A stretch of 64,000 nucleotides of DNA from Campylobacter vicugnae. Its GTDB lineage: Bacteria; Campylobacterota; Campylobacteria; Campylobacterales; Campylobacteraceae. The notes beneath the pieces were generated by a model. That model did no database searches and was not told the DNA's origin. It saw nothing but the letters and a program-made list of their open reading frames with translations. The DNA is taken from the NCBI RefSeq assembly GCF_002139875.1, contig NZ_CP018793.1, positions 1 to 64,000 of the forward strand, in the 5' to 3' direction. The number at the start of each line of letters is the position of its first letter. Within the stretch, counting starts at the first letter, position 1. The translations under genes and the position numbers were made by a program. Positions 13,386 to 59,746 of this stretch are shown here, in pieces.

Positions 13386-13415
13386 CCCAAAGAGACTAGA
13401 TTTAGTCTCTTTGGG
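13386..13415 (-). terminator. Rho-independent-type hairpin after flagellin gene
   Basis: A 13-bp perfect stem, CCCAAAGAGACTA at 13386-13398 and TAGTCTCTTTGGG at 13403-13415 with a 4-base loop. It begins 12 bases past the flagellin stop codon on the minus strand, followed by an AT-rich tail. Strong hairpins like this are usual after highly expressed flagellin genes. Confidence 0.85.
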
Positions 13416-13427
13416 TATTTAATTAGA

Positions 13428-14996
13428 TTACTGAAGCAGTCTTAAGATGTTTTGTTGTACTGAGTTAGCTTGACTCATAGCATAGCTACCACTTTGAGCT
13501 AGGATATTAAATTTAGAGAAGTTTGCACTCTCACTAGCAAAGTCTACATCTCTTATTTGAGATTCAGCTGATTTTACATTTACTTGGGTAACTGTAATAT
13601 TGTTTATAGTAGCTACAAGCTGATTTTGAACCGAACCTAGATCAGCTCTTAATTTATCTAGAGTTTTTCTAGCTGCTTCAGCTACATCTATCATAGCTTG
13701 AGCGCCACCATAGCTATTTACACCACCTACTTGATCTACCCAACCATCAACTGAAGCTCCACCATTAAAGAAGCCCATAGCTTTAGCCATAGCAGCACTA
13801 ATCGTGCCAGAGTTCATATATTTAAGATTTACACTTGATTGATTATATGCATCAGAAGCATCAGAAGCATTTGTTATTGCTGCATTTCCACTAAAAATAG
13901 CTGAAGCAACAGTAGACATACCATTTAAACCCACTTTAATATCTCTAGCATCTTGGCGTATAAATGTAAGCTGCCCTAAATATAATGCTCCTCCGGCCGT
14001 ATTTCCAGTTGGCTTTCCAGCAACTTGACTAAATCCACCAGTTGATTTTGTATCAATTCTAATAGCTCTACCATCTTTAGCTGCTAGAACTAATTTACCA
14101 TTTTCTACGCTAGCTTCCACGCCAGTTTCATCTTTTTTAGCGTTGATTGCTCCGATTAGTACAGCGTCGCTATCGTTTGCTTTAACAGTTACATCGCCTA
14201 TCATTACACCATTTATCTCTAAACCGTGCAATACACCACCAGTTATAGCACCAGACATAATTTGAGTATTATTAACTTTAACTTTTACACCAGTTTTATC
14301 TGAAACTCCGTTCATCATCTCAGCTACAGCTTTATAACCATCTGTTTTTAACACGCCATTGCTAATAGCTTGAAACACATAGCCATTAGGATATCCATCT
14401 ATACCACTAAGTTTTACAGTTAAATCACCAACAGCAGCACTTACGGCTGATACATGAGTATTTAAAGTAGTCTCAAACCTAGTATGTCCAATAGTATTTG
14501 AGTTTGTAGCACCTATACTTACTTTAGCTGTTTCATTACTATAAGCACCAATTTGGAAGTTTTTATTTGAGAAATTTCCATTTAGTAGTTGTTGGCCATT
14601 AAAGCTTGTAGTAGTAGCTATCATATCTAGCTCTTCAAGTAGTCTGCTAATATCATTTTGAAGTGCTCTTCTAGAGTCACTATTTTGACCATCTTGTGCT
14701 GCTTGGATAGCTTTAGTTTTAATAGTATCAAGTATTTTAATCTGTTCATCCATAGCTTTATCTGCAGTTTGAACAATACCAATTGCATCATTACCATTAG
14801 CAATTGCTTGACCTAAAGAGTTAGCTTGGCTTTTTAATGAATCAGCAATAACAAGACCAGATGCATCATCAGCTGCTGTTTGAATTCTAAGACCTGAACT
14901 TAGGCGACCAAGTGAGCTAGTAAGCTCTCTATCAGTAATAAGTGAGTTAGCATGTGCATTCATAGCTGCAATGTTAGTGTTAATTCTAAAACTCAT
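13428..14996 (-). CDS. flaA: Flagellin (filament protein)
   Basis: Structural subunit of the flagellar filament. The start at 14996 ([15 protein letters not shown]) is chosen because all flagellins begin so and AAAGGATA precedes it; 24 upstream codons in frame are leader. The 522 residues comprise the conserved N-terminal D0/D1 coil ([12 protein letters not shown]...DDASGL), a variable Gly/Ser/Thr-rich middle about 180-430 where O-glycans are usually placed, and a conserved C-terminus ([15 protein letters not shown]). Only one flagellin copy is visible here. The sigma-28 promoter and G13 tract upstream are listed separately. Confidence 0.96.
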
Positions 14997-15059
14997 TGTA
15001 TATCCTTTAAAGTAAAATATTTGGCTTAAACTTAATCCTTTGTTTAAGCATATACCATT

Positions 15060-15086
15060 ATATCGCACACAATATTAATTTATTTA
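15060..15086 (-). promoter_or_regulatory. Sigma-28 (FliA) promoter of the flagellin gene
   Basis: On the minus strand a -35 TAAA (15083-15086) is followed by 17 bases and then CGATAT (15060-15065). This matches TAAA-N15-GCCGATAA closely; only the two bases before CGATA differ. It lies about 65 bp before the flagellin ATG. Sigma-28 control of major flagellin is established in Campylobacter. Confidence 0.85.
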
Positions 15087-15089
15087 TAT

Positions 15090-15102
15090 GGGGGGGGGGG
15101 GG
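15090..15102. repeat. G13 homopolymer tract immediately upstream of the flagellin -35
   Basis: Thirteen consecutive G on the plus strand (C13 on the flagellin strand), 3 bp upstream of the -35 TAAA. Tracts of this length in Campylobacter are normally hypermutable by slippage. It is intergenic, so length changes could alter promoter geometry rather than reading frame. Confidence 0.95.
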
Positions 15103-15526
15103 AATTTGATATATTTTTCATAAAATTTGCAAATTTCTTTATAAATTTAATAGAATTTGAGTTAAATTTGATAAATGTAACTATTTTATCATAAGATGAA
15201 ATTTGAGAAATTTTAAAGAATTTAGCCAAATAGTTAAAATGTAATGCAAGTGTAATTAAATTTAAGAGATTTGAGGTTTTAGTTGAGAATAAGGGGAGAG
15301 ATGGGTGGTTATTGTTTGGTAATTAGTGATTATTTGAGTTGGGATTACTACTAAATATTATAGTGGCAATGGTTTTGCAATGATTGGAGTTTGGGCTATC
15401 ATTGCAAAAATAAGGATAATTATAATTTTAAAGTTATAATATTAATGCATTATAATATTAGCAGATATCACCAAGTAAATCTATCACCGATTTTTATCTT
15501 ATCATCATATTTAAATTCTGTAATCT
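15103..15526. other. AT-rich intergenic region between flagellin and formyltransferase genes
   Basis: About 420 bp without an intact gene. It holds a 12-bp inverted repeat, TTTTGCAATGAT at 15373-15384 and ATCATTGCAAAA at 15398-15409 with a 13-base loop, which may be a terminator for the minus-strand formyltransferase. From 15468 to about 15552 the minus strand encodes what looks like the lost C-terminal tail of that gene in another frame. A G-rich plus-strand patch (15291-15350) has no open frame I can support. Confidence 0.6.
15373..15409. repeat. 12-bp perfect inverted repeat, intergenic
   Basis: TTTTGCAATGAT and its exact complement are separated by 13 bases. It could fold into a stable hairpin on either strand, and lies about 60 bp beyond the reconstructed stop of the formyltransferase (15468). 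No clear U-run follows on either side, so terminator function is possible but unproven. Confidence 0.6.
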
Positions 15527-16390
15527 CTAAGGCTTTATCTTTGCACTTGACCAAAATCCACTTGAAGTAAGCCCTACAATAGCGCCATTTATACACTTAT
15601 AATTTGGAGCATCTAAGTGATATATAGCACGCGATATCTTCATCTCTTTGTCTTTTAGTGTTGTTCTAGCAATTGGGCCAGGATGAGTTATAGCGCGTAT
15701 TAGATTGAAGATTTCTCTAGCAGTTTGATCCCAGTTAATAATCTCATCGCCAATTTTTCGCTGAGTGCAATAAAAGCCATATTTATCAATGCTTGATTGT
15801 TTAGTAGTTTTAAAATCTTTAGATAACATCATCTCTAATGCTTGGCATAGAAGATTAGCGCACTCTGTATGAGCTGTTTGAAGTAGAGTATTATAGTCAT
15901 CGTTATCGCTGATTTGGTAGAACTTTTGTAAGATTATATCGCCTGTATCTATGCCTTCATCTATATAATGCACTGTGATACCAAAGCTTTTTTCATCATT
16001 TATTAACGCCCAGTTTAAAATATTTCTACCACGGTAAAATGGCAAAGCTCCAGCGTGGCAGTTGATCGCCTTTAGTGGAGTAAGGTTTATTAATTGCTTT
16101 TTAAATATCTGATCAAAAGACATAGATACCAATATATCGCAGTTAAATTTAGTAATTTTAGCGATGAATTTAGGCGAGTTTATATCTTTATCTTCTAAAA
16201 GTTCTATGCCATAATCTTTAGCAAATTTAGCTAGAATTTTATCATTTGAGCCATATCTAGTGCAGATAAAGCTAATTTGCATATTTGGATTTTGTATAAT
16301 CTTTTTAAAAGCATTATGCGCCCAAATTCCATCAGCAAAGTAGCCAATTTTTAGTATTTTATTAGGGCTAGAACCCCCCCCTATAATCAT
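15527..16390 (-). CDS. Formyltransferase (sugar N-formyltransferase-like), phase-variable, frameshifted tail
   Basis: An N10-formyltetrahydrofolate-dependent formyltransferase-fold protein. The active-site block NCHAGALPFYRGRN, with the catalytic Asn and His, is near residues 109-122, and IDEGIDTGD holds the conserved Asp. By its flagellar and Maf neighbours it may formylate an amino-sugar used on flagellin or surface glycans; that is inference. The start is ATG after AGGAGG. Codons 4-6 are a G8 tract, in frame at this length. A one-base loss in a T-run (15553-15556) replaces the last about 27 residues (VKCKDKALEI...GDRFTW) with WSSAKIKP. Confidence 0.8.
   Translation of the reverse strand: MIIGGGSSPNKILKIGYFADGIWAHNAFKKIIQNPNMQISFICTRYGSNDKILAKFAKDYGIELLEDKDINSPKFIAKITKFNCDILVSMSFDQIFKKQLINLTPLKAINCHAGALPFYRGRNILNWALINDEKSFGITVHYIDEGIDTGDIILQKFYQISDNDDYNTLLQTAHTECANLLCQALEMMLSKDFKTTKQSSIDKYGFYCTQRKIGDEIINWDQTAREIFNLIRAITHPGPIARTTLKDKEMKISRAIYHLDAPNYKCINGAIVGLTSSGFWSSAKIKP
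16374..16381 (-). repeat. G8 tract within codons 4-6 of the formyltransferase gene
   Basis: Eight C on the plus strand, read as GGG GGG GG on the coding strand directly after ATG ATT ATA. With eight bases the frame stays open; seven or nine would terminate early because no start codon follows the tract nearby. This is the usual form of a translational phase-variation switch. Confidence 0.9.
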
Positions 16391-58616: not shown

Positions 58617-59746
58617 TTGGCAAAGATTAAGTTATCCGCACTTGCGTGTGCGATTCTTGTTGGGGGGGGCAGTTAGTTGCTGAGGATTTCTATGACATAC
58701 CAGAAATAGATCTTAGCCTTTCTATGGATACTGGCCACTTGCAGTCTGTCGACATTAACAGTGAAGAAAAATGGATAATGGGTGATGCCACGGATGCAAT
58801 TATTAATGTAGATAACAATGGAGAGCTAATATCTTATATTATATCCTTTGTTCAAGCCGATATAAACATTAAAAATAATTCAAATGCAATTTTTGAAAGG
58901 CACCCATCTAGAAGTGAAAATCTTGCAAGTTATGAAAGTAAAATATATGTTGTTAATAATAGTAAACTAGAGATTAATAATAATGCAGAATTTTATGATG
59001 GAGCGCATCTTATTGTTAAAGATAACTCAAATGCTACAATTAATGCCACACTAACCGTAAATGACTCTGGTACTATTGAATTTGTAGATGGCGAATTTGT
59101 TGTAAATGATGGTGGTATTAAGATTGATAAATCAAATTTAAATGTTGAAGGTGAAGCAACTTTTGGTAATTCTGATACAGAGTTAAATAATAGTTCAATT
59201 GTAAATTTCAAAGATAAATTAAATCTTTTTGATAGTGCTATGCTTCTTAAAAATGGTAGCACATTAGATGTTGGCGGCGTGGCTGACTTTGAAGACTCTG
59301 CTCTTGTTGTTCAAAATGGTTCTAAGGTGATGTTTAATGATAGCTTTACAATGAAAAATGAAGCTGAAAAAAGTATAATTATACTAGATAATGGTTCAGA
59401 AATTAATGTCAAAGGGGATTTTGAAAACCATGGTGTAATCTATTATGGAGCGAGTGCAGATAATGTCCCTAAAATCACAGTTGATGGTAAAACAACTTTA
59501 AAAGATACCACAGAGATTGGAGTCTATGCAACAAGTGGCGATATATCAAATTTAAATCAAGTAGTATTTTTAGAGAGTAAAGAAGCGATAGAAAATCAAG
59601 CAACCGATGAAAATATCTATGCAATGTATTTTGATCCAAATAATGAAGATGCAAATGAAGAGGGCTTAGTAAAATATGATCAAAATATAATTGATGCTGT
59701 TTTAAATTTAAGTAAAGATAGCAAAAAGCTATTAGCTCAAATTTAA
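58617..59746 (+). pseudogene. Autotransporter passenger domain, phase OFF and ended by an in-frame TAA
   Basis: With AAGGAG 6 bases upstream, TTG at 58617 begins MAKIKLSALACAILVGGG, a signal peptide. The G8 tract (58662-58669) shifts the frame and a TAG stops it at once. One more G (G9) gives MAKIKLSALACAILVGGGQLVAED..., in frame with the long downstream reading. That reading is a beta-helix passenger of repeated short strands with Asn/Asp/Gly turns (for example VNDGGIKIDKSNLNVEG). It ends at TAA 59744-59746, and the barrel continues in the same frame. A GTG at 58646 opens the current frame, but without a signal. Confidence 0.8.
58662..58669 (+). repeat. G8 tract in the autotransporter signal-peptide codons
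   Basis: Eight G within the signal-peptide sequence. Nine or six would align the TTG start with the passenger frame; eight or seven stop quickly. This is a typical Campylobacter phase-variation switch in the OFF setting. Confidence 0.92.

Follow-up and report, generated by a model that had tools for sequence, protein, structure and literature searches.

Poly-C tracts beside the sigma-28 promoters of dispersed flagellin genes: candidate promoter-linked phase variation in the Campylobacter lanienae clade

The stretch of DNA analysed here (the window, 64,000 nucleotides) carries a flagellin gene with a sigma-28 promoter in which a run of 13 C residues lies just upstream of the -35 element, and similar tracts recur at the promoters of flagellin genes scattered through the same genome (G000, 1.61 Mb) and through the genomes of its relatives. 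From the sequences alone, we think it probable that several dispersed flagellin genes are phase-variable through these promoter tracts, with tract slippage and displacement of UP-like DNA grading the output of each gene. The features of the locus in the window are:

13386-13415, minus strand: terminator-like hairpin CCCAAAGAGACTA-AATC-TAGTCTCTTTGGG, directly past the stop codon; the 3' edge of the cassette, common to the three sigma-28 copies
13428-14996, minus strand: sigma-28 driven flagellin gene of 522 aa; Pfam Flagellin_N 2.7e-42, Flagellin_C 3.7e-28, Flagellin_IN 7e-12
14997-15325, minus strand: upstream part of the cassette (promoter and leader), near-identical in the three sigma-28 copies by identity profile and flank sequences
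15060-15065, minus strand: -10 element CGATAT of the sigma-28 promoter, present in all examined sigma-28 flagellin promoters of the genus
15083-15086, minus strand: -35 element TAAA, 17 bp from the -10, with the same fit in tractless sister-species flagellin promoters
15090-15102, minus strand: poly-C tract C13 (G13 on the plus strand)
15103-15172, minus strand: AT-rich (87%) region, putatively UP-like by composition and palindrome scan, with the palindrome AAATTTGCAAATTT inside

Read along the flagellin strand the order is C13-ATA-TAAA-N17-CGATAT and then the flagellin ATG at 14996, with 3 bp (15087-15089) between tract and -35 and 63 bp between -10 and ATG. The original prediction, a G13 run whose end is 3 bp away from the -35 in a sigma-28 promoter that has a well-formed -10, is exact as to position, and its promoter assignment is confirmed: the -35 is correctly placed, since TAAA-N17-CGATAT also fits the tractless flagellin promoters of sister species, and the elements expected of a sigma-28 promoter, correctly spaced, precede a flagellin gene in a genome in which fliA (encoding FliA) is detected. 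Relative to the putative start site the tract would occupy approximately -37 to -49, the zone in which contact by the C-terminal domain of the RNA polymerase alpha subunit (alpha-CTD) is expected. By simple arithmetic the expected count of a 13-long run of G or C in 64 kb at 33% G+C is about 1e-5, and the only other G or C runs of at least 8 in the window are two 8-mers. The tract is beside the promoter and outside coding sequence; an ORF check at the locus found no ORF of substance across it, and frameshift switching by the tract is therefore rejected.

G000 contains four full-length flagellin genes, each at a locus of its own, the paralogs being at C1:902837, 959977 and 1133956. Three have sigma-28 promoters that are near letter-identical and carry tracts of C13, C12 and C10, and the fourth lacks a tract and is preceded by a sigma-54-type promoter (TGGAACACCATTTGC). 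Each sigma-28 flagellin is a complete cassette of about 330 bp of common upstream DNA, the gene and the hairpin, with homology ending soon after. The paralogs have conserved ends and centres that have diverged to about 50-85% DNA identity, and switching of the expressed gene would therefore alter the exposed region of the filament and so its surface. A tract in this position had been predicted to change flagellin transcription step by step, and this is supported in part, in that the tract is noncoding, adjoins the -35 and is hypervariable between identical promoters; the prediction considered one flagellin, however, and missed that there are three copies of the tract. With three dispersed tract-bearing flagellins, a choice or mixing of flagellin variants is the likely consequence, in addition to a change in the amount of a single flagellin. 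We note that two of the sigma-28 flagellin genes may sit beside rRNA operons, as their common neighbouring spurious ORFs resemble, by appearance, antisense reads of such operons.

Comparison with other genomes of the genus places these tracts in a single clade. According to the available text of PMC11261738 (citing Miller et al. 2017), the C. lanienae or selenium-negative clade, with members C. lanienae, C. devanensis, C. porcelli and C. vicugnae, is marked by the absence of selA and by four to ten non-identical, unlinked flagellins. G000 is selA-negative and has four flagellins at four loci, and the window therefore belongs to this clade. All tract-bearing genomes lack selA, and no tract of this kind is present at the flagellin upstream regions of seven selA-positive sister genomes; in the incomplete G013 genome (83%) there is neither a selA match nor a tract at the one flagellin observed. 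Three relatives of the clade with complete genomes, G001, G005 and G009, have 10, 6 and 7 flagellin genes respectively, and the comparison of related upstream regions that the original prediction had proposed reveals a tract (C7-C12) at the same place in 17 of their 18 sigma-28 flagellin promoters and in none of their five sigma-54 flagellin promoters. The tract lies 3-5 bp from the -35 (about 6 bp in L123), and the spacing of the core is fixed because the tract is outside it. One relative has as many as seven dispersed flagellin genes, each with its own tract, and the promoter tract is also present in two Campylobacter genomes assembled from metagenomes, one of sheep cecum and one of yak rectum.

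The sole tractless sigma-28 promoter of the 18 is L116 (G005:C1:34727), in which the tract was lost or never present. Its flagellin, if expressed, does so with no tract at all, which counts against the proposed role of the tract, and could be a constantly expressed copy; in G009 the 532-aa counterpart, L123, carries a C9 tract whose distance differs slightly. Across 399 genomes sampled from the order, the motif poly-C, TWAA, N16-18, CGATAT occurs at 13 sites in three clade genomes only, all of them mapped flagellin promoters, and neither the reversed-pattern control nor the G version of the motif gave a match in the same 399 genomes; an independent origin elsewhere in the order is thus rejected for this sample. 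The chromosomal location of the flagellin loci is largely not conserved between species, and cassettes of about 2 kb with their own promoter and terminator hairpin are found at mostly different places in each species (L147, L148; G001, G005, G009).

Tract length varies between promoters that are otherwise the same. A set of G001 promoters without a single difference in the 120 bp upstream and the 95 bp downstream has tracts of C10, C9, C7 and C7, and a further identical pair in this genome has C9 in one and C8 in the other; between the G000 copies the flanks show no more than one substitution and one indel, with tracts of 13, 12 and 10. This is variation between paralogs and not between cells, and it is not seen everywhere, as G009 has C11 in four of its five main-type tracts. 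We regard the differences between paralogs as good evidence of a fast-changing tract, and not of switching within a culture, as paralogs are no population and their tract lengths could have drifted slowly. No mutS1 match above the cut-off was found, and a MutS-like ORF (a 735-codon frame) gives a weak match (37 bits) only; this is consistent with poor repair of slippage and would favour it.

The alternative that the tract mutates without any effect on transcription, and is maintained through copying and gene conversion between the dispersed cassettes, seems to us improbable. It does account for the clear exchange of sequence among cassettes and the homogenisation of promoters within a genome, and Campylobacter genomes are rich in G/C tracts, with 35 of at least 9 in G000, many within ORFs, among which the flagellin tracts are some of the longest. 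It does not account for a tract that remains pure C and in place while its flanks have diverged between species at 26-42% of aligned sites, that is limited to sigma-28 flagellin promoters, and that is absent from sister species with paralogous flagellins. The chance of no substitution in the tract is about 2e-4, a rough value that treats the tract as ordinary sequence and is weakened by slippage-driven purging of interruptions. For a noncoding tract that lies beside the -35, is hypervariable between identical promoters and is kept in place, graded transcriptional control is the natural reading.

The most likely scenario for such control is that slipped-strand mispairing alters the length of the C tract independently at three dispersed, self-contained cassettes, each with promoter, gene and terminator. 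With the TAAA-N17-CGATAT core fixed, each C gained or lost would shift the upstream AT-rich, UP-like DNA by one base and rotate it by roughly a tenth of a helical turn, and the changed distance and rotational phase of this DNA to the -35 would alter RNA polymerase binding, probably via the alpha C-terminal domains. The output of each flagellin would then shift in steps, and subpopulations would assemble filaments from different flagellin variants or mixtures of them, with the tract-free sigma-54 flagellin as a constant component. We infer slippage within a strain, the effect on transcription, the alpha-CTD/UP mechanism and the consequence for the filament. The 70 bp upstream of the tract are 86-89% A+T, and AT-rich DNA directly adjoins the -35 in several tractless promoters of sister species; the tract thus resembles a GC spacer of variable length inserted between the core and an UP-like region.

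The closest parallel in the position of the tract is Helicobacter pylori sabA, in which a T tract directly upstream of the -35 tunes output in a graded, roughly helical-period fashion (PMC4081817). Both systems have a homopolymer upstream of the -35 (by 3-5 bp here) with AT-rich UP-like DNA beyond it; they differ in that sabA is a single adhesin gene with a T tract and a sigma-70 promoter, whereas here C tracts precede the sigma-28 promoters of several flagellin copies. Graded output through alignment of the core and UP-like DNA has been demonstrated for sabA, and for the flagellin promoters we propose it by analogy.

A different use of the tract would be as an on/off switch, in which it sets the spacing between a bound trans-acting activator and the core such that only one or two lengths are transcribed. 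Long palindromes upstream of the tract in three of the five promoter types (AAATTTGCAAATTT, TAAATTTTTTAAAAAATTTA and CACTTTTTTTAAAAAAAGTG; shuffle p of 0.063, 0.008 and 0.01) could mark the binding site; however, they share neither sequence nor distance to the tract (27, 17 and 17 bp) and are missing from the other two types, and a conserved activator site upstream of the tract is rejected on these grounds. Campylobacter is not known to have an activator for its sigma-28 flagellin promoters, which also counts against such a switch, and we consider it unlikely. A precedent for it exists in the Bordetella pertussis fim promoters, at which BvgA acts and 14C is on and 13C is off (PMC10172299). The fim2 and fim3 genes come nearest to the flagellins in layout, being dispersed paralogous subunit genes of a surface filament, each with its own independently varying promoter C tract of similar length (PMC10172299). 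The fim tract, though, occupies part of the promoter itself, separating the -10 from the BvgA-bound region, and transcription there requires the activator and responds to the tract in a near on/off manner (PMC10172299), whereas the flagellin tract is upstream of an intact -35 and -10 with a constant 17 bp spacer, in a sigma-28 promoter with no known activator; the subunits are fimbrial in one case and flagellar in the other, and there is no homology between them.

One promoter in G009 bears on whether the tract is mainly a common block of homology at which cassettes and promoters are spliced between loci or species. L117 (G009:C1:509792) is a chimera joined at the tract, in which the upstream part is that of L118 in G009 over 154 contiguous bases and the downstream part that of L111 in G005 over all 85 bases to the ATG. 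This is one clear case only, long homology on both sides would recombine better than ten C's, and the exact position of the tract 3-5 bp from the -35 is left unexplained, such that we judge this a very unlikely main role. More tentatively, the preferred reading of graded control could be extended to a flagellin repertoire: a genome would have three to seven cassettes, every one under a promoter rheostat of its own, that together would give a combinatorial, graded mixture in the filament, and the tracts would serve also as recombination joints between loci and species; we regard this extension as possible but doubtful.

Alternative flagellins are switched at the level of transcription in Salmonella, where Hin inversion together with a repressor selects between two alternatives, fliC and fljB. 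Graded control by tract length would likewise switch alternative flagellins by transcription; it differs in that no inversion is seen here, with independent variation expected at three or more promoters. Within the Campylobacterota, flagellar phase variation has so far been described in coding sequences or glycan genes, by homopolymer slippage in flgR, flgS, fliP and flagellar glycan genes of Campylobacter and Helicobacter (PMC3930126; PMC6321876); those tracts are within the coding sequences of regulatory, basal-body and modification genes, whereas the tracts considered here are at the flagellin promoters. Multiple unlinked flagellins have already been published for the C. lanienae clade (PMC11261738), and the available text of that paper mentions no promoter tracts. 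We found no description of promoter-linked flagellin tracts in the literature searched, and Miller et al. 2017 may already mention them. If correct, graded control would provide many-state flagellin variation without an invertase, would account for the retention of four to ten unlinked flagellins in the clade, and would have a bearing on serology, phage receptors and typing. The near-identical natural promoters that differ only in the tract form a ready-made panel on the tuning of sigma-28 promoters by a tract outside the -35.

Among other candidate phase-variable sites, we note that directly upstream of the flagellin in the window is a formyltransferase-like gene (15527-16390, minus strand; Pfam Formyl_trans_N 7.9e-23) with a G8 run at 16374-16381, near its start codon. 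This gene is a candidate for phase variation by frameshift, possibly for a formylated sugar. The second G8 run of the window is at 58662-58669. Elsewhere in G000 three G9 tracts with near-same flanks lie within 3 kb (C1:156969, 158095 and 159764). They are found towards the 3' ends of three ORFs, each about 375-383 codons long, which form a tandem family of candidate phase-variable genes. In a selA-positive sister species (L090, the G006:C1:281371 region), a flagellin has G11 between an upstream ATG and a GTG start; the frame of the upstream ATG crosses the G11 into the flagellin, so that variation of this copy may be translational and not transcriptional.
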